NCBI GenBank assembly: GCA_040878395.1
Contig: JBBDMI010000014.1
Location: forward strand, 1-64,000
Direction: 5' to 3'
DNA length: 64,000 bases
Origin: Candidatus Dependentiae bacterium
Lineage (GTDB): Bacteria; Babelota; Babeliae; Babelales; Vermiphilaceae
Shown here piece by piece: positions 4,624 to 45,606 of this stretch. Within the stretch, counting starts at the first letter, position 1; each line of letters opens with the position of its first letter. The notes beneath the pieces are model-generated. The model was given only the letters and a program-made list of their open reading frames with translations. It ran no database searches and had not been told where the DNA came from. The position numbers and the translations under genes were made by a program.

Positions 4624-5094
4624 TTATCTTGATGGCGTAAAATTAAATATAGGTATTCCTGCACTTTCAAATCCTTCACGAGCAAGCCCACAAGCAGCAA
4701 CCGCTGCTACAAATTCACGCAATCTCAATTCTTGAGCGCCAGTTGCACATTGCTTTAGACCTAAATAAACGGTACCTAAAGCAGCTCCGGAACCCAATAT
4801 ATTTTTAATCATTTTGTCATCTGCGCCACCTGCATATGCAAGCATCGCTGTACACAACGTTGAAGCGGCAACATTTTGAAAATCTTCTGCAAAAGAGGCT
4901 CTTTGACGACGACCATTTTGCCAGTCATTATATGAATTTCTTATTCGTTCCAAGGCCCATCCGCCACCAACAAGTACACAAATTCCTTTTGCCAACATTG
5001 GCACCAAATCAGCCGGGTCATTATTGCGTGCTTGCACATTACTGCTCATTAATCCCATCAAGCACAAACTCAACAATAATTGCTTTTTCATCAT
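4624..5094 (-). CDS. Secreted/membrane protein of unknown function
   Basis: 156 residues. A signal peptide (MMKKQLLLSLCLMGLMSSNVQA, cleavage expected after about residue 22) is followed by a mildly hydrophobic segment (LAKGICVLVGGGWAL), a basic stretch, then Ala/Gly-rich hydrophobic helices around residues 75-115 and 125-145. No recognised domain. It is monocistronic, with its own terminator, which is the usual arrangement for the many small exported proteins in this window. Confidence 0.75.
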   Translation of the reverse strand: MMKKQLLLSLCLMGLMSSNVQARNNDPADLVPMLAKGICVLVGGGWALERIRNSYNDWQNGRRQRASFAEDFQNVAASTLCTAMLAYAGGADDKMIKNILGSGAALGTVYLGLKQCATGAQELRLREFVAAVAACGLAREGFESAGIPIFNFTPSR

Positions 5095-18274: not shown

Positions 18275-19030
18275 TTATTCATTTGTACCTACATCGCCAG
18301 AAAAAGCAATTGCAGCATCAAGGTCAATATCAGTGGCTTGAGATACTAAATCCGATAGACCACCCTCAGACTCTTCAGCTTTTTCAGAACTTTCCGCAGA
18401 TTCTTTGAGAGCCTTTGCAAACGAACCTATTTGCTCGTCATGCTCCTTTACGCTGCCTACAACTTTTTCCAACTGAGCTTTAACAACACTCAACTCGTTT
18501 GCCTGCTCAACTATTGTACCCTCTGCATTTAGTAATTCAGTTCTTAATCTATCTAACTCTGATATTGATAACCGATTATCTTTTTTGTTTTTTTCTAAAA
18601 GAGAGATATTTGAATGTAAGGTCTGCAATACTACAGTTAAACTTTGCCCTCTATGCTCATCGCTAAATTTGCCGTTACCAACTAGCAACTCCAATTTCCC
18701 TAATGCACCTTTCAATTCCCAAACAGTTGAATCTTTTTCCAAATCACTCAATCTTTTAGCTAAACTTGAAACATCTGAACCTTCTTCTAATACTTTAATC
18801 CTTGATTCTAACAATCCTAATTTTGCATCTGAATCACTTGAACTCGTTGTTTCTACCGAACCTTTTTTATCTTGACCCAAGAGCTTATATCCTCCCCAAG
18901 CACTTAATACCATAACACCTGCAGCCGCTCCTAATGCTAGTGTTTTGTCGTCAAAACCGTCGGCACAAAAAGTTTGTTGTGATTGAAATAGCCCTAATGT
19001 TAACAATAAAGCTGCACATTTACTTTTCAT
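18275..19030 (-). CDS. Exported coiled-coil protein with one TM segment
   Basis: 251 residues from the ATG at 19030, which has AAGGA upstream; the frame is open a further 40 codons but only this start places a signal peptide (MKSKCAALLLTLGLFQSQQTFC) at the N terminus. A glycine-rich TM segment follows (about 30-50, LALGAAAGVMVLSAWGGYKLL), then heptad-rich coiled coil to about residue 215 and an acidic end. No known domain. It shares its plan with the products at 19573, 23334, 24443 and 36524. Confidence 0.7.
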   Translation of the reverse strand: MKSKCAALLLTLGLFQSQQTFCADGFDDKTLALGAAAGVMVLSAWGGYKLLGQDKKGSVETTSSSDSDAKLGLLESRIKVLEEGSDVSSLAKRLSDLEKDSTVWELKGALGKLELLVGNGKFSDEHRGQSLTVVLQTLHSNISLLEKNKKDNRLSISELDRLRTELLNAEGTIVEQANELSVVKAQLEKVVGSVKEHDEQIGSFAKALKESAESSEKAEESEGGLSDLVSQATDIDLDAAIAFSGDVGTNE

Positions 19031-21712: not shown

Positions 21713-22834
21713 TTAAATTCCCATAACTCGTTTTTTTGAACTTTTTTGTGAAATAAACATTCTCTTTTTAAAATCAATAGCTAACTTATTCACCATTTGA
21801 TAGAAAAACTCACGATCCGGCCCTTTGACCACCGCTTGCTCATGCGCTTCTGCTAATGCCACCGGATAACCATTACCCTTTTGCGCCTGATCATACATAA
21901 TACGCGCAACGGCATTAACATTTTCTTCATCTTGTGCAATCCAAGCAGGCACTTCGATTCTGGCAATTTCATCACCAACATGCAAGTAAAAAAAATAGGG
22001 CATAAGATGTTCCGGATATTCATCACAAATTGGAGAATGACTTTTGAATACAATACTACGTTGCCCAACTTTGAGAAAAAACCCTGCAATCGTACTATCA
22101 GAAATATGATCCATAACTTTATGTTCTGTACATCCTTTTACCAAAAAATTACACAATTCCATACGAATCAAATTTACCAAATCTTTACCTTTGGACAAAC
22201 TGATATACCCACCGTGCAAAATCCGTGCTGCATAAAGTTGATGCATCAACCCTAAATAGCGTGCTATATAATGATCTTTTAAATTCGGTGACTTTGATGC
22301 TAAATGCCAAAAAATAAGCGAACCATCAAATAAAAATGTCTGCGGAACTTCATGATTAAACAGTGGTTGACAAATATCAAGGCCATATTGCAATTCTAAC
22401 TCTTGCCGACGCGCATTAACTACATCCATCAAGTTATCATCAGCTTCATTTTCATTCCTGCCAGCATACACATATGGAATTGAGTTATACACAAATGGCT
22501 GGTGCTGCATGCCATACGAAATAACAATCGTACCAACATTAATTAAATAGCAACTGGTGCCTTGATGTCGATCGGGATAAATTTGTGAACCATCAACCGA
22601 TACCACTTGATACGGTTCATGCAATGGTGCAACATCAAATGTTTTGTCAATAGCATCAGTCCATGATGGCACCACCCATGGTGAACTTATTGCATGTGCT
22701 TTTTTTTGAAATTCAGGATCATTGGCAATACGCTGCCATGATGCACGTGCAATAGAAATCTCTTTTGAAATATCAGTAAACAGTTCACCTTTAATGTCAG
22801 TCAAAGCTTGCATAACTTTTGCATAATGAAGCAT
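21713..22834 (-). CDS. nurA: NurA-domain nuclease
   Basis: 373 residues. The NurA fold is marked by the metal-binding VVSVDGSQIYPDRHQ near residue 80, a second acidic strand with FLFDGSLIFWHLA near 165, and the C-terminal ALAEAHEQAVVKGPDREFFYQMV. In archaea NurA works with HerA in end resection; bacterial homologues are less well known. No herA lies in this window. It starts 4 bases after the SufU-like gene ends and is followed after 4 bases by an exported protein gene. Confidence 0.8.
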   Translation of the reverse strand: MLHYAKVMQALTDIKGELFTDISKEISIARASWQRIANDPEFQKKAHAISSPWVVPSWTDAIDKTFDVAPLHEPYQVVSVDGSQIYPDRHQGTSCYLINVGTIVISYGMQHQPFVYNSIPYVYAGRNENEADDNLMDVVNARRQELELQYGLDICQPLFNHEVPQTFLFDGSLIFWHLASKSPNLKDHYIARYLGLMHQLYAARILHGGYISLSKGKDLVNLIRMELCNFLVKGCTEHKVMDHISDSTIAGFFLKVGQRSIVFKSHSPICDEYPEHLMPYFFYLHVGDEIARIEVPAWIAQDEENVNAVARIMYDQAQKGNGYPVALAEAHEQAVVKGPDREFFYQMVNKLAIDFKKRMFISQKSSKKRVMGI

Positions 22835-22838
22835 ATCT

Positions 22839-23210
22839 TCATAAACCTTTTTGCTGAAACTGTTTTATACCTTCTTTTAACGCATGCAATGAAAGAAGTG
22901 CACATTTTAATCGCGTAGGGCCCAAAGGAATTTTAATCAATTGCAACATATCGTCAACTGAAAATTGTGACAATTCATCTATCGGTTTTCCCAAAGCATA
23001 TTCTGCAAGCATAGAGGCAGTTGCTTGACTAATAACACAACCTTTACCTTCAAATGCAATATGAGTAATCACATCATTGGTAATTTTACCTTGCATAGTT
23101 ACCGCATCACCACATGAGGGGTTATACTGACCACTATCAAAATCTGCACCGGTTAAAATGCCTCGATGACGCGGATGTTGATAATGATCCATTAATTCTT
23201 CTTGATACAT
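22839..23210 (-). CDS. sufU: SufU/IscU-type Fe-S cluster scaffold
   Basis: 123 residues. The three cluster ligands are in place: Cys33 with Asp35 (NPSCGDAV), Cys58 (GKGCVISQA) and Cys103 (GPTRLKCALLSLHALKEGI). The RxKCA form of the third site is SufU-like rather than IscU-like (no LPPVKLHCS), but the protein is shorter than Bacillus SufU. It probably supplies or shuttles sulfur for SufBCD with the SufS at 40.6 kb, although the gene is 18 kb away in an operon with nurA and guaD. Confidence 0.88.
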   Translation of the reverse strand: MYQEELMDHYQHPRHRGILTGADFDSGQYNPSCGDAVTMQGKITNDVITHIAFEGKGCVISQATASMLAEYALGKPIDELSQFSVDDMLQLIKIPLGPTRLKCALLSLHALKEGIKQFQQKGL

Positions 23211-23277: not shown

Positions 23278-23313
23278 AAAAAAGGGTGCCTTATAAAAAA
23301 AGCACCCTTTTTT
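23278..23313 (-). terminator. Rho-independent terminator of the 23334 gene
   Basis: A 12-base perfect stem (23278-23289 with 23302-23313, core GGGTGC/GCACCC) is flanked by A and T runs on both sides, 20 bases past the stop. Confidence 0.85.
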
Positions 23314-23333: not shown

Positions 23334-24260
23334 TTAAGCCACAAGCTCTTGTTCAGCAACTCGTTCATCTTCTAATGTAATAATTTCAGCATGTGTAAGC
23401 CTCATATCAACGCCTTGTTGAATATTTTTATATATGCAGTCTAACATATGTATATTTTCTTTATTTTCTTCACATGAATTATACAAATCAACAAATAGGC
23501 TCTGCAACATATTCAATTCAGCTGCCAACTCTGCATTAACTTCTGACAGATCAAACTGTTTTACCATTGATGGTTGTCTGTTGCCTGCACTAAGGTGTTC
23601 AACATCTTGCTTCATGCTGTCCATCAATGAACAGATAACTTCATGCTCACGCTCAGTAATACGCAATGGATCAAGCGGCATTGCACGCTCTTGCCACCAT
23701 AGATAAGCTTGATAACCTGCATAACCCAAAATGGTTACAATACCAATTAAACTAGCCAATTGTACTCGTGTATAATTTTTAAACATACGTACAACAGAAT
23801 TGCTACTTTCAGGATCTTCCGGTTCGATTGGATCTCCACTTGCGTCACTTTCAACAACTTCCGTGATTACATCAAGTGTTGTCGCATTAAGAGCTTTAAC
23901 TGATGTACCATCTTGAGCACCTACATTTTCTGAACCAGCTGCCTCATCTGACAATGCATCATTCGATGGAGCTTGAATTTCATCTTCTGAAATCTCTTTT
24001 TTTCTCTTTGTCTGATCTTCATTAACTGACGGAGAGAGAAAATCACTTACCTCTTCTTTTTTTTCTCCAAACCAAACATTCATCCGTTTAAAAATCTCAA
24101 CTAATTTTTCTTTTGGTGGTTGATCTGTATCGGGAATAATTTCAGCAAAAATTTTTCTTGGTGCATTTGACTCATTGTTATCTTTATCTGCATACATACC
24201 AAAAGTTGATAGCAGTAAAAGAAATGACAACATTTTTTTGCTTGATACACACATCTGCAT
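23334..24260 (-). CDS. Exported TM protein with a domain shared with the 24443 product
   Basis: 308 residues from the ATG at 24260 (GAGG upstream). A signal-like segment (MLSFLLLLSTFGMYA within the first 24 residues), an acidic Ser/Glu-rich region of about 130 residues, a TM segment (LASLIGIVTILGYAGYQAYLWW) and a C-terminal helical domain follow. That last domain (MDSMKQDVEHL, QFDLSEV, FVDLYNSCEENKENIHMLDC, IYKNIQQGV) aligns residue for residue with the next upstream gene's product. I know no described family for it. Confidence 0.7.
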   Translation of the reverse strand: MQMCVSSKKMLSFLLLLSTFGMYADKDNNESNAPRKIFAEIIPDTDQPPKEKLVEIFKRMNVWFGEKKEEVSDFLSPSVNEDQTKRKKEISEDEIQAPSNDALSDEAAGSENVGAQDGTSVKALNATTLDVITEVVESDASGDPIEPEDPESSNSVVRMFKNYTRVQLASLIGIVTILGYAGYQAYLWWQERAMPLDPLRITEREHEVICSLMDSMKQDVEHLSAGNRQPSMVKQFDLSEVNAELAAELNMLQSLFVDLYNSCEENKENIHMLDCIYKNIQQGVDMRLTHAEIITLEDERVAEQELVA

Positions 24261-24388
24261 AAGAGACCTCGTTGTTAAGAATAAACATAAGATAGATTTA
24301 CTTTTTGAAAACAATTACTTTTTATAATTGTTGTCCTGAACAGGTACAAGTATACAAATGAAATATATTATTGCAATCCACTCTCACA

Positions 24389-24422
24389 ATAAACAAGGCG
24401 CTTAAAAAAGCACCTTGTTTAT
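24389..24422 (-). terminator. Hairpin terminator of the 24443 gene
   Basis: ATAAACAAGG pairs with CCTTGTTTAT, extended by a partly matched GC step, around a short A-rich loop; T-rich sequence follows on the minus strand. It lies 20 bases past the stop. Confidence 0.65.
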
Positions 24423-24442
24423 TTCAGATCTATATATAAAAA

Positions 24443-24967
24443 TTAAGCTGCACACATCGCTTGTACATCTTGTACAATTGAATCGTAGAAGCCCTCTAAG
24501 ACTGCCATTTTTTCAGGATTTTCAACACACTGTTCATACATATGCAGAAAGCTACGTTTTACCATAAGGCCTTCTTGTGCCAATTGATGATCATCCATTT
24601 GACTGAAATCAAACGACTCTATAAGTATTTCAGTTTGATCACCCTCTTTTAAACGTCTCAAATCTGTTTCCATTGTATCGGTAAATTTAATCAAAATTCC
24701 TTGATCATTCTGACTTAACAACATCACTTCTTCATTTAGCTCATCTTTTTGTTGAGATTGAGACCATTTATAATCTACACATTTATATAATGCATAAAGA
24801 CCAACCGCTGATGCTGTTACCCATCCAAAAACTGTTTTATTAAAGTGAGAAAGAAACATTTGAACATTAATTTCGGCTGCAACAACTACCGAATCCTCTT
24901 CATTTTGAGCACACAACTCAACTGAACAAAGCAATATAAGAGCTAAAAAAAACTTATTTTTTTGCAT
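24443..24967 (-). CDS. Exported TM protein, paralogue of the 23334 product
   Basis: 174 residues from the ATG at 24967, with AAAGGA upstream. A signal peptide (MQKNKFFLALILLCSVELCAQ) is followed by a TM segment (about 45-62, VFGWVTASAVGLYALYKCV) and a helical domain (TDTMETDLRRLKEG, SFDFSQM, FLHMYEQCVENPEKMAVLEG, FYDSIVQDV). This domain matches the C-terminal 85 residues of the 23334 product; the two differ mainly by the long acidic insert before the TM in the other. Unknown function. Confidence 0.7.
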   Translation of the reverse strand: MQKNKFFLALILLCSVELCAQNEEDSVVVAAEINVQMFLSHFNKTVFGWVTASAVGLYALYKCVDYKWSQSQQKDELNEEVMLLSQNDQGILIKFTDTMETDLRRLKEGDQTEILIESFDFSQMDDHQLAQEGLMVKRSFLHMYEQCVENPEKMAVLEGFYDSIVQDVQAMCAA

Positions 24968-25121
24968 AACACTTTCCTTTTTTATATTATTATCAAAACA
25001 TTTCTCTTTAAAGAATTTAGTATAGTAATTATGACTGCAATTGCAATCCAAGAATTAATTGCCAAAACAAGCATCTCGCTGTATCATGAAAAGATAGCTA
25101 TAATCATATGATTCAAGGAAC

Positions 25122-25970
25122 ATGAGCCCAATGTGTAAAAAAATAATCCTATTAGCATTTCTGTTATTTCAATTAACTATTTTTCCCGCCACCATCATAT
25201 TCGATTTAAATGGTGTATTGGTCTATCAAAATAAATTAAAGGTCTGCCTGAATGCCGGACTTTATACTCTGGCTCGCTATGTGCTCACTCATGGTCCATT
25301 CATTAAGAACCTATTTACCACTACCCTAAATGCCGTTCCTTACGATACAAATGTGATAGAAGCGCCTGAAGATCAGGATGGCAATGCATTACCCCCTATC
25401 ATGATTGGATGGTTAAAAGGTGAAATCGATGGCAATCAATTAGTTGATCACGTTGAACAATTTTTAGCATCTACTCCTGAATGTTGCAAGACTTCATCAA
25501 AAAAACGGTTTATCAGCTCTCTTGCCCGTGCTGTTTTTGCACCGAAATCTTTTGCACAAGCAACCTGTTTTTATAAAGACGCAATTACATTGGTTAAAAG
25601 CTGCAAAGCGGCCGGTCACAAAGTGTATATTTTATCAAACTGGGATAAAGCTTCATTTGAATATATTCAACAATGGTACCCGGAATTTTGTGAGCTTTTT
25701 GATGGTATAGAAATCTCAGGAAACATCGACATGATCAAACCACAAAAAGAAATTTATGAATACATTATTAATAAATATAATTTAGATCCAACCAAAACAG
25801 CATTTATTGATGATCAACGCGTAAACATTCGTACCGCAAAAGACTGTCATCTGTTTGGCATACAATGCACACAAAAAAAATCTTTCATCTCATCATCTCC
25901 TGATACACAAAAGATACGCAATAAGATTAATGCATGGTTAGCTAGCATTAATGAAATCTACATCAATTAA
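25122..25970 (+). CDS. HAD-superfamily hydrolase with a signal-like N terminus
   Basis: 282 residues. HAD motif I reads IIFDLNGVLVY at about residue 25 (nucleophile Asp), motif II KVYILSNWDK, motif III lysine in MIKPQKEIYEYI, and motif IV FIDDQRVNIRTAK. This is the YihX-like order with a helical cap. The first 23 residues (MSPMCKKIILLAFLLFQLTIFPA) are a signal peptide or anchor, so the active site would lie outside the cytoplasm unless a later start is used; none is suitable before motif I. TATAAT at 25099-25104 is a likely -10 box. Confidence 0.85.
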   Translation: MSPMCKKIILLAFLLFQLTIFPATIIFDLNGVLVYQNKLKVCLNAGLYTLARYVLTHGPFIKNLFTTTLNAVPYDTNVIEAPEDQDGNALPPIMIGWLKGEIDGNQLVDHVEQFLASTPECCKTSSKKRFISSLARAVFAPKSFAQATCFYKDAITLVKSCKAAGHKVYILSNWDKASFEYIQQWYPEFCELFDGIEISGNIDMIKPQKEIYEYIINKYNLDPTKTAFIDDQRVNIRTAKDCHLFGIQCTQKKSFISSSPDTQKIRNKINAWLASINEIYIN

Positions 25971-32938: not shown

Positions 32939-33634
32939 TCATGATTCACTAGATATCAATTTTCTTATAACCATTGGTACCATAACCAAAATTGATAATA
33001 TAAACAACAGGACAAAAACTATAGGCGGCATAACATCATCAAGTTGTGTAATTCCCTGTATCTTTTGTCCGGCTAATGCATAAATAAATGCACCCGGCAA
33101 CATTCCTACAAATGCTGTCCACATATAGGTCCATAATGAGATATTGGTTAACCCCATAAAGAGATTAATAAAAAAAGTGGGCGTTATGGGAGAAATTTGC
33201 AAACTAAGCAAATAGCGTGCTCCATGTTTTTGGAACGCTTTACTAAAACGTTCAAACTGTTTTGCATAATGTTCATACACCCAATCACGCAATAGATGAC
33301 GTACTATTAAAAAGACTAAAGAGCCGCCAATAGTACCGGCCAAAGTAGCATAGATTGCACCATATATGCCTCCGAATAGAAAACCACCTAAAATAGTCAT
33401 CAAAATAGTTACGGGAATAAAACATGCTGTTGTACCAATAAACAGCAGCATATAACAAAATAACACGGTCCAATATTTTTGCTGAGTATACAATTGCAAA
33501 TCAAATGCATGCTTCTTTAAGAGCATTAATGAAAAAAAATGCACATCAAATTTTAAGATCAAAAATATACACAAAACCAATGTAGCAAATACATATGCAT
33601 AACGTTTTTTTCTAAATAGTTTCATGGTTGCCAT
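32939..33634 (-). CDS. TVP38/TMEM64 (VTT/DedA-like) membrane protein 3
   Basis: 231 residues with about five hydrophobic segments. VTT-domain hallmarks are GGFLFGGIYGAIYATLAGTIGGSLVFLIVRHLL and the re-entrant/TM block FINLFMGLTNISLWTYMWTAFVGMLPGAFIYALAGQKI. Relatives act as lipid scramblases or flippases (DedA, VTT proteins). It is the last of three tandem paralogues, overlapping the previous gene by 23 bases. Confidence 0.9.
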   Translation of the reverse strand: MATMKLFRKKRYAYVFATLVLCIFLILKFDVHFFSLMLLKKHAFDLQLYTQQKYWTVLFCYMLLFIGTTACFIPVTILMTILGGFLFGGIYGAIYATLAGTIGGSLVFLIVRHLLRDWVYEHYAKQFERFSKAFQKHGARYLLSLQISPITPTFFINLFMGLTNISLWTYMWTAFVGMLPGAFIYALAGQKIQGITQLDDVMPPIVFVLLFILSILVMVPMVIRKLISSES

Positions 33635-34316
33635 TTCGATTATTTTTCAGATATGAGAATAACATAGGAATCAATAATAAGCATGCAATAGCGGCAAATG
33701 CCAGCATCATACGTGGTGTAAAAATATCTTGCAAAGCATCGATTTTTTGTAACTGTTGTCCAGCAAATGTATAAGCTAGTGAAGCGGGTAAAATACCAAC
33801 CGATGTTGTCCATACAAAAGTCCAAAAAGGAACTTGAGTCAAACCGGCCAACATATTAACTAAAAAATAAGGGAAAATAACAATTAACCGCGCTACTAAT
33901 AAAAAAACTGCCCCTTGTTGCTCAAAGCGATTATTAAATTTCGCCAATGCTAGAGCATAACGTTGCTGAATTGACTCACCTAAACTATAACGTACCAACA
34001 AAAATATAATCGATGCACCTATAGTAGCACCCACATTTGTATATAATGCACCCAATGCTGTTCCGAATAAAAAACCACCGGTTACGGTAGCCAATGAGGC
34101 AAGTGGCAATGCAAGTGCAGCAATTACTGTATAAAAAAGAATAAAAAATAGAACTGCTAAATAATAATGATCATGCACAAAACTGCGCAATAAATCAACC
34201 TGTGCTTTTATGTTGAGCAAAGTAATAGCATCTAAAGCGCCCGAGACTCGCAATCCAAAAAAAATAATAATCAAACAGCTTGCGATAAAAATAGTAATTT
34301 TTTGAGATGTTTTCAT
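33612..34316 (-). CDS. TVP38/TMEM64 (VTT/DedA-like) membrane protein 2
   Basis: 234 residues. It has the same topology and motifs as its neighbours: an N-terminal TM, GGFLFGTALGALYTNVGATIGASIIFLLVRY and MLAGLTQVPFWTFVWTTSVGILPASLAYTFAGQQL. It overlaps the gene before by one base and the gene after by 23, so translation of all three is coupled. Confidence 0.9.
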   Translation of the reverse strand: MKTSQKITIFIASCLIIIFFGLRVSGALDAITLLNIKAQVDLLRSFVHDHYYLAVLFFILFYTVIAALALPLASLATVTGGFLFGTALGALYTNVGATIGASIIFLLVRYSLGESIQQRYALALAKFNNRFEQQGAVFLLVARLIVIFPYFLVNMLAGLTQVPFWTFVWTTSVGILPASLAYTFAGQQLQKIDALQDIFTPRMMLAFAAIACLLLIPMLFSYLKNNRNGNHETI

Positions 34317-35011
34317 TAAAGCTCAATTGTTTTTTTATGTTTCTTTAATAATATCGGTATACATGCTAACAGAATAAGTAATATAAAGGCAATAACAACT
34401 TCAGTTGAGAAAACATCTGAAACGGTTTTAATTGATCCTAACTCTTTGCCCGCAAATGCATATACCATACCTTGTGGAATAAATCCTACCGCAGTTGTCC
34501 AGATCACCGTTACAAGCGAAAGACGTGAAAGCGCCGCAACACTGTTAATAATAAAATAGGGAAAAACCGTTGAAAAATGGAGCATCAATAAATAACTCAC
34601 GCCATACTCTTGCATCGCTTTTTCAAACCGTTTTGCACGATCAGCATACATTTGATGCAACATATCAGAGAAAAACAGACGATATGCAATATATGCCAAA
34701 CTCGCGCCAACAGTTACCCCAATAGTCGACAAAAAGGCACCCATAAGTGCACCAAATAGATAACCACCTAATAATGTTAAAATAATTGATGAAGGGAGAG
34801 AAAATGCTATAGATCCAATAAAAACAAGCATATATGCAAAAACAGCCAAATGATAATTATACTCAACTAATGACTTGAAATAGCCACTCTTTTCTTGCAC
34901 AAAACTCAATGAAAAATAATGTCCAAGTGGTGTATAGGCTTGTAATAACCAAAAAACAACACATGAAACAATAATATATACAGTTTTATTTAACACAGTT
35001 TTATTTATCAT
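34316..35011 (-). CDS. TVP38/TMEM64 (VTT/DedA-like) membrane protein 1
   Basis: 231 residues, first of the three paralogues after the oxidoreductase. Motifs: GGYLFGALMGAFLSTIGVTVGASLAYIAYR and AALSRLSLVTVIWTTAVGFIPQGMVYAFAGKEL. It begins 18 bases after the oxidoreductase gene stops. In other bacteria a VTT domain and this type of oxidoreductase are found fused, which supports a joint function here. Confidence 0.9.
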   Translation of the reverse strand: MINKTVLNKTVYIIVSCVVFWLLQAYTPLGHYFSLSFVQEKSGYFKSLVEYNYHLAVFAYMLVFIGSIAFSLPSSIILTLLGGYLFGALMGAFLSTIGVTVGASLAYIAYRLFFSDMLHQMYADRAKRFEKAMQEYGVSYLLMLHFSTVFPYFIINSVAALSRLSLVTVIWTTAVGFIPQGMVYAFAGKELGSIKTVSDVFSTEVVIAFILLILLACIPILLKKHKKTIEL

Positions 35012-36523: not shown

Positions 36524-37594
36524 TTATTCTGAATCTACTAGTCTATCTGTCAAAGTAAGCTGAGATGCTCTACCAAAGGCCGGTGGTGACGTATACAGAC
36601 TTGATGTTGATGCAGGAAGTACACCAAATTGAGATAAAACAGTTGATGCTGCCCTCTTTGTTTTCCTTGTATTAAGTATTGCAACATTTATGACACCAGG
36701 TTTTTTGTCTTGCAATAACCTCAAAATTTCGCTTTGATTGCTCAATAGAACTTCTTGCCCTTCCTCCAATTTGACTAATCTTCTATCTAATGTTCCAAAT
36801 TGTTGTTGAAATACATCTAATTTATTTTGCAAAAACTGTTTCATAGAAATATCAGCATGTTGTAATTTTTCTTGTAACTGATCAAGAAAATTTTTCTCTA
36901 AAGCTGTAAGTTGTTCTTGAAGTGGTGCAATCGCTTGCGCAAGTCCTTGATCTTTCAATTCATTCAATATTTGCTGCATACCACCAAGACGTTCGGCAAA
37001 TTGTGCCGTTTGATCTTCAATTGATCGGTTTGTGTTTCCCAAACCTGATTCTAAAGCAACTTTAAGCGTTTCAAGTTCTGTTGTGATCTGTTGAACTTGG
37101 TCTGATTTTGCCAAAAGTGCTCGCTCTTGCGTTGCTTGTTCAAATCCAGCATGTACTTGTTGACCCAATGCATCAACTTTGCCATTCACTTCGTTAATTT
37201 TCTTTCCATTTTCACGAACTTTACCCACCGTATACACTCCAAGTGCAGTTGCAAATAAGCCACCACTTAAAATATGGGGAAGATATTGAGCAATATATGG
37301 GGCTAAAATCACCATAATTGAAACACAACCTTTACCCACGGAAGCACATGCTGATAAAACTGATTTTATTGCCGATGGCAACATTTTTTTTTCAACAGTT
37401 TCATCTTGCATTGCATGCAATGCTTCAGGTAACATCTGCTGCATAAATACCGGATTAAGTCTTGCATAATCTGGCAAAACGAAAGATTGAGAAGTAGATC
37501 CATACAAGCAAGAAGATAAAGAAAAACTATCAGCTGCATGCGATGAGAAATAAAATAATATGCATGACATAAGTATTAAAACTATTCTTTTCAT
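36524..37594 (-). CDS. Exported coiled-coil protein with one or two TM segments
   Basis: 356 residues from the ATG at 37594 (AGGAACAG upstream). A signal peptide (MKRIVLILMSCILFYFSSHA), a hydrophobic region (about 80-130: CVSIMVILAPYIAQYLP and GGLFATALGVYTVGKV) and a long coiled coil (about 130-300) follow. The coil has phased repeats like VNGKVDALGQQVHAGFEQ and KFGTLDRRLVKLEEGQEVLL. The tail is Ser/Thr-rich. Same plan as the 18275 product. It is monocistronic, 66 bases upstream-end from the oxidoreductase operon. Confidence 0.7.
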   Translation of the reverse strand: MKRIVLILMSCILFYFSSHAADSFSLSSCLYGSTSQSFVLPDYARLNPVFMQQMLPEALHAMQDETVEKKMLPSAIKSVLSACASVGKGCVSIMVILAPYIAQYLPHILSGGLFATALGVYTVGKVRENGKKINEVNGKVDALGQQVHAGFEQATQERALLAKSDQVQQITTELETLKVALESGLGNTNRSIEDQTAQFAERLGGMQQILNELKDQGLAQAIAPLQEQLTALEKNFLDQLQEKLQHADISMKQFLQNKLDVFQQQFGTLDRRLVKLEEGQEVLLSNQSEILRLLQDKKPGVINVAILNTRKTKRAASTVLSQFGVLPASTSSLYTSPPAFGRASQLTLTDRLVDSE

Positions 37595-45062: not shown

Positions 45063-45524
45063 CTAATCTGCAACGTAAGCAGATTCTGCAGCATTATTAT
45101 TTAGATATGTGCGAAACAAATAAGCTGCAACACCGACAACACCTGTTATGATAGCAACCGGAATTCCTATTTTTTTAACTTTTAAAACAATGGTACTGCC
45201 TTCATCCTCTGTCGATAGCTCAACTTTTAATCTATGATATGCTTCTGCATGTGTTTCAAAATCATTTTTTTCTTTTGCAGTAGCAAGTGCTTGTTCTAAA
45301 TCTTCAAGTGATAGTGATGACTGCTTATCATCACCTGAAAACAGTTGTTTTGCACGTGTATAGGCATTTCCATTTTCTGAAGGCAACGAACTTAAATCTT
45401 CAAGCGATGCTTTGCGCCCACAACTTTGTTTACAATTCTCTTCTGGACAAAATTGCGCAACCAATCCCATTGGAGATAAAAGGACCATTAACAAAAACAA
45501 ATTACTTTTTTTCATATTCATCAT
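45063..45524 (-). CDS. Small exported protein with a C-terminal TM segment
   Basis: 153 residues from the ATG at 45524 (AAGGA upstream). A signal peptide (MMNMKKSNLFLLMVLLSPMGLVAQ) precedes two cysteines (FCPEENCKQSCG, three in fact), a charged helical region (about 45-110) and a C-terminal TM segment (IGIPVAIITGVVGVAAYLF). No recognised domain. Confidence 0.65.
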   Translation of the reverse strand: MMNMKKSNLFLLMVLLSPMGLVAQFCPEENCKQSCGRKASLEDLSSLPSENGNAYTRAKQLFSGDDKQSSLSLEDLEQALATAKEKNDFETHAEAYHRLKVELSTEDEGSTIVLKVKKIGIPVAIITGVVGVAAYLFRTYLNNNAAESAYVAD

Positions 45525-45606
45525 AAAAAAAAATCCTTTACTTAAAAAGAAATGAAATATTACCAAAGTGAGTTTAAAATAAGACAAAAAAAATAGGAAG
45601 AGTTTT

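Follow-up and report, generated by a model that had tools for sequence, protein, structure and literature searches.

Two neighbouring genes for probable membrane proteins with signal peptides

The window, i.e. the entire stretch of 64,000 nucleotides of DNA from a parasitic Dependentiae bacterium analysed here, carries on its minus strand two adjacent genes, designated gene A and gene B, whose products share the same architecture and which lie next to genes for a SufU/IscU-like protein and a NurA-domain protein (Table 1). Both open reading frames were present as given in a preliminary description of this DNA. That of gene B can be extended to an upstream TTG at 24314; ATG codons at 24260 or 24254 are the likelier starts, because a GAGG stretch resembling a ribosome-binding site precedes 24260.

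Table 1 Features of the gene pair and its surroundings in the window
Feature	Coordinates	Strand	Remarks
Gene A (24443 product)	24443..24967	-	174-aa precursor: signal peptide, short acidic linker, one hydrophobic segment, C-terminal three-helix domain
Signal peptide, gene A	24908..24967	-	MQKNKFFLALILLCSVELCA; Ala before predicted cleavage site invariant in six members
Probable transmembrane segment, gene A	24776..24832	-	VFGWVTASAVGLYALYKCV; Kyte-Doolittle 1.34
Shared C-terminal domain, gene A	24446..24727	-	Predicted helices 86-107, 127-149, 151-173
Promoter, gene A	25019..25046	-	TTGCAA-N16-TATACT, 51 nt before ATG
Terminator hairpin, gene A	24388..24424	-	16-bp stem, fold z -7.61
Gene B (23334 product)	23334..24260	-	308-aa precursor, architecture as gene A, 131-residue acidic linker
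Signal peptide, gene B	24189..24260	-	Ends in LLLLSTFGMYA; putative cleavage
Probable transmembrane segment, gene B	23700..23765	-	VQLASLIGIVTILGYAGYQAYL; Kyte-Doolittle 1.29
Shared C-terminal domain, gene B	23385..23669	-	Predicted helices 201-222, 241-263, 265-287; pLDDT about 90
Promoter, gene B	24349..24376	-	TTGCAA-N16-TATACT, same GGATTGCAAT context as gene A promoter
Terminator hairpin, gene B	23278..23313	-	15-bp stem, fold z -4.95; parts gene B from sufU in the window genome
sufU/iscU-like gene (NifU_N)	22839..23210	-	Adjoins the family in all four genomes having it
NurA-domain gene	21713..22834	-	Part of the same conserved block

When the two products were compared by BLASTP, they aligned over 134 residues including the hydrophobic segment (E=3e-11, 24% identical, 51% positive). 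Smith-Waterman scores set against 500 shuffles gave Z=16 for the C-terminal domains alone, with none of the shuffles scoring as well, and only Z=1.1 for the hydrophobic segment together with its N-terminal flank. The similarity therefore resides in the C-terminal domain and does not simply stem from a common membrane helix, and the 23334 and 24443 products are, judged by their sequences, paralogues. The alignment had originally been described as almost gapless over some 85 residues. This is true of the C-terminal domain, which contains a gap of just one residue, while the similarity as a whole extends more widely. Every residue of the motif proposed at that time (M-x2-D-x3-L-x2-G, F-D-x-S, L-A, F-x2-[LM]-Y-x2-C-x-E-N-x-E and Y-x2-I-x-Q-x-V) was recovered in the alignment of A and B. 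The motif survives in part in the wider family described below, where five members share M-x2-D-x3-L, D-x-S, E and F-x3-Y without variation, while C-x-E-N-x-E is not conserved.

Distribution and evolution of the family

Five clear members were found among 101 genomes of the phylum: the pair in the window, a second pair in a congener (G001) and a single gene in a second congener (G002). A sixth, diverged member was found in Candidatus Babeliales SW_55 (G007), which belongs to another genus. Further members thus exist, as had been expected, and they are confined to a few close relatives among these genomes. The pair in G001 has the same gene order as that in the window; G001a (L003 1486-2112) is the orthologue of gene A with 36% identity and G001b (L003 532-1323) that of gene B with 32% identity over the shared region. 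A profile built from the domains of the five clear members returned all five with E<1e-50, a value that follows by construction, and the G007 protein with E=2e-5. The alignment of the latter covers the hydrophobic segment and the beginning of the domain (Z about 7 against the 24443 product and the G002 protein), and the C-terminal domain of this protein alone gave no significant score (Z about -0.7 to 1.1). The gene occupies the same place as the family gene of G002, between a VTT/DedA-like gene and sufU, and this position along with the promoter described below supports its classification as a probable orthologue. Adding it to the profile revealed no further sure member in the phylum genomes, and no relatives were found among IMG/VR viral contigs or PLSDB plasmids. 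Weak profile matches in G011, G039, G058, G083, G092 and on contig G000:C4 were set aside. Those inspected, in G011, G039, G058 and G000:C4, are other signal-peptide or transmembrane proteins whose match lies chiefly in or close to the hydrophobic segment, and none is encoded beside sufU; the one from G058 has a single transmembrane segment and a long helical region that appears TPR-like by eye.

In a phylogenetic tree, the 24443 product and G001a form a clade (99/99) separate from the 23334 product, G001b and the G002 protein. The duplication is therefore older than the split of the two species. Note that the exact placement of the G002 protein, which sits on a long branch, is uncertain. The family is present as a single copy in G002 and G007, and the pair is thus not obligatory. 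Orthologues from the window and G001 are only 32-36% identical in the shared region and the SufU proteins of the same two species 79%; by this comparison, the family proteins evolve far faster than SufU.

Signal peptide, membrane segment and topology

As originally described, each protein combines a signal peptide with one transmembrane-like segment, and these sequence features recur in all six members. The predicted signal peptides invariably consist of a basic n-region and a hydrophobic core and have alanine at position -1, and position -3 is occupied by L, M, V or A. The linker that follows varies from 24 to 182 residues and is strongly acidic in four members and weakly so in the 24443 and G007 proteins. 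The hydrophobic segment is rich in Gly, Ala and Tyr and of only moderate hydrophobicity (best 19-residue Kyte-Doolittle values of 1.06-1.59 across the six members).

If the signal peptide is cleaved and one stop-transfer helix comes after it, the standard rules place the C-terminal domain in the cytoplasm. In such a bitopic protein an excess of positive charge is expected on the cytoplasmic, C-terminal side of the segment. Summed over the six members, however, the N-terminal side carries 13 K/R and few D/E, while the C-terminal side is acidic with 7 K/R and 16 D/E. The predicted topology signals are thus in conflict, the stop-transfer rule pointing to a C-terminus inside and the flanking charges to a C-terminus outside. 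The earlier term "exported" may accordingly stand for the proteins as such but is not established for the domain they share.

A predicted three-helix domain

In the AlphaFold2 models of both proteins, the C-terminal domain consists of three helices with a confidence of about 90, and residues 1-80 of the 24443 product received low confidence. Because the input alignments held six sequences, we consider the predicted fold plausible rather than secured. The domain has no conserved Cys or His, and no catalytic site is apparent in the proteins.

The shared domain had been called unrecognised, and this was borne out by searches of Pfam, NCBIfam, PHROGs, PADLOC and PDB sequences with single members and profiles, none of which gave a match above cut-off. 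Membership of a known family required either that the score of the whole protein exceed the curated cut-off or that several members give consistently low E-values. The best sub-threshold values, 0.00028 for HpnD in NCBIfam and 0.0037-0.0062 in PHROGs, were each obtained with one member only. Mistic (PF11458) gave a weak match to 32 residues of the 23334 protein (E=0.027, 14.9 bits versus a cut-off of 26), and the protein is not a member of that family. Foldseek found no fold match at E <= 0.001 in PDB or BFVD. The best recurring resemblance, which was not significant, was to the FliS-type helical bundle (PDB 6gow, 5maw, 6lea and 3iqc; E 1.2-4.9 in the PDB search, Foldseek probability up to 0.57), and this candidate was rejected. 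No sequence similarity to FliS was found; this cytosolic chaperone of flagellin has neither a signal peptide nor a transmembrane segment.

A fixed position at the sufU-nurA locus

In all four member genomes the family genes lie next to the sufU-nurA pair. The gap between family gene and sufU amounts to 123 nt in the window and 113 nt in G001, and the single-copy genes of G002 and G007 end 6 nt and 4 nt, respectively, before sufU. Such short gaps suggest that in the single-copy state the gene was a member of a sufU-nurA operon. In about 23 of the 27 sufU-bearing genomes of the taxonomic family, no member was recognisable at that place. Instead, many of the genomes with sufU and without a member carry a divergently oriented gene for a HAD hydrolase, and some carry genes for other proteins with signal peptide and transmembrane segment. 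A scan with SufU as bait recovered the relatives and, in addition, two loci (L065 and L066) without a family member.

Several further observations concern the same region. Just upstream of sufU in three further genera (L052, L048 and L049) there are genes for proteins with signal peptide plus transmembrane segment that are either unrelated or unrecognisably diverged. In the window, sufU is directly followed by the gene for the NurA-domain protein (PF09376, E=6e-26), and G001, G002, G007 and L065 retain the sufU-nurA pairing; NurA is known chiefly from archaea, together with HerA. Positions 25122-25970 of the window, oriented divergently to the family genes, encode a HAD-superfamily hydrolase with a signal peptide, and genes that look related are found upstream of sufU in many other genomes of Dependentiae. 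Three tandem genes for VTT/DedA-like membrane proteins are present at 32939-35011 of the window (the product of 34316-35011 was checked; PF09335, E=4e-21), and a similar gene directly adjoins the family gene in G002 and G007.

Promoters and terminators

Each gene had been credited with its own terminator. Both are real hairpins, which a simple terminator scan missed and which became apparent from their fold z scores. The genes also share their putative promoter sequence. The pattern GGATTGCAAT-N15-TATACT occurs before both genes, nowhere else in the 64 kb and in none of 100 shuffles. Its core, TTGCAA-N16-TATACT, is found at four sites in the 1.34-Mb genome, two of them at the gene pair, five times in G001, including one site before the gene A orthologue, and once in G007, directly before the member gene. 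Since the pattern was chosen from the window, the sites in G001 and G007 represent an independent test; by our own arithmetic, about 0.001 sites would be expected before the four genes concerned (250 nt each) and two were found. Also note that G001b lacks the core site and that G002 has TATACT without TTGCAA at that spacing. A dedicated regulon defined by the common promoter was rejected, as the same or nearly the same site precedes unrelated genes and the gene for EF-P, where it is closely similar in G000 and G001. It therefore looks like an ordinary promoter that has been inherited with the gene. Promoter and position together mark the G007 gene as a probable orthologue in another genus, even after its C-terminal domain has diverged beyond recognition.

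Possible functions

Weak spurious matches are frequent with helical, charge-rich sequences and were seen here for other proteins that combine a signal peptide with a transmembrane segment. A mere chance resemblance of the A and B products is nevertheless refuted by the shuffling experiment and by the recurrence of the pair, in the same order, in a second species; we regard it as practically inconceivable. Could the genes be decaying or nearly functionless duplicates retained by chance? The low identity of orthologues and the absence of the gene from many relatives would fit, but the frames are open without internal stops, they have their own promoters and terminators, and core residues and helical pattern are conserved in five proteins. 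Decay is thus very improbable. What is established for the pair is common ancestry, the signal peptide, the hydrophobic segment, the predicted three-helix domain, the fixed sufU-nurA locus and, for each gene, a promoter and a terminator of its own. We tentatively favour the explanation, giving it not quite an even chance, that the genes are old tandem duplicates belonging to a small, fast-evolving family of envelope proteins in one Dependentiae lineage, and that they provide a membrane-anchored helical module for protein interaction. The proposed function is deduced from the architecture only. The signal peptide would send the N-terminus through the inner membrane via Sec and would be cut off by signal peptidase I, the flexible and mostly acidic linker would lie outside, and the Gly/Tyr-rich segment would anchor the proteins and may pair them. 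The three-helix domain would then act in protein binding, perhaps with the two paralogues combined in a heteromer.

A role in host interaction is unlikely but deserves serious consideration. Here, the whole mature protein would cross the inner membrane, the hydrophobic segment would anchor it from outside, either in the outer layer of the bacterium or in a membrane of the host, and the three-helix domain would face the host. The signal peptide, the narrow distribution and the fast evolution relative to SufU agree with this, as do the charges around the segment, positive before and acidic after it, which favour a C-terminus outside; moreover, the large signal-peptide proteomes of Dependentiae have been proposed to act on hosts (PMC6561590). 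On the other hand, neither a eukaryote-like domain nor a known effector signature was found in Pfam, transfer normally stops at a hydrophobic segment that follows a signal peptide, and location and promoter are of a housekeeping type, a similar site being present at the EF-P gene in the same genomes. The proximity to sufU allows for yet another function, that of an accessory membrane protein for SufU whose cytoplasm-facing C-terminal domain tethers Fe-S scaffold assembly to the membrane or aids it there. A family gene adjoins sufU in all four genomes, the 4-6 nt spacing in G002 and G007 makes co-transcription likely, and a signal peptide with a stop-transfer segment predicts a cytoplasmic C-terminus. 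We nonetheless judge this improbable: a recognisable member is missing from about 23 of the 27 sufU genomes of the family, a terminator parts the genes in the window, and the domain is without conserved Cys or His. A hetero-oligomer of the two membrane-anchored paralogues, the cytoplasmic three-helix domains of which recruit SufU, appears highly improbable; if true, it would mean that Fe-S scaffold assembly is membrane-tethered in one lineage of intracellular parasites.

Place among the exported proteins of Dependentiae

Irrespective of function, a small family has been defined that has a predicted fold, a fixed locus, a conserved promoter and no match in the libraries searched. The initial suggestion that it might be the most novel protein unit of this DNA was overstated, since orphan signal-peptide proteins are very common in the phylum (PMC6561590). 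In Chromulinavorax destructans, a signal peptide is predicted for 44% of the coding sequences, and orphans are enriched among these (PMC6561590). Like the orphans of that predicted secretome, the proteins described here have a signal peptide, no recognisable domain and a lineage-restricted distribution; unlike them, they form a defined family with a duplicated pair, a common promoter and a fixed locus. The family is thus genuine and new to the libraries searched, but of a kind common in the phylum. It usefully illustrates how orphan genes for exported proteins arise and diverge in Dependentiae and cautions that some "orphans" of this phylum are fast-evolved orthologues. A crude scan of the window revealed many open reading frames with signal peptide-like starts, several of which have a late Gly-rich hydrophobic segment. 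This combination is possibly a common layout of envelope proteins in the lineage. Open reading frames with a likely signal peptide and such a segment are located at 18275-19030, 36524-37594, 45063-45587 and 4624-5094.
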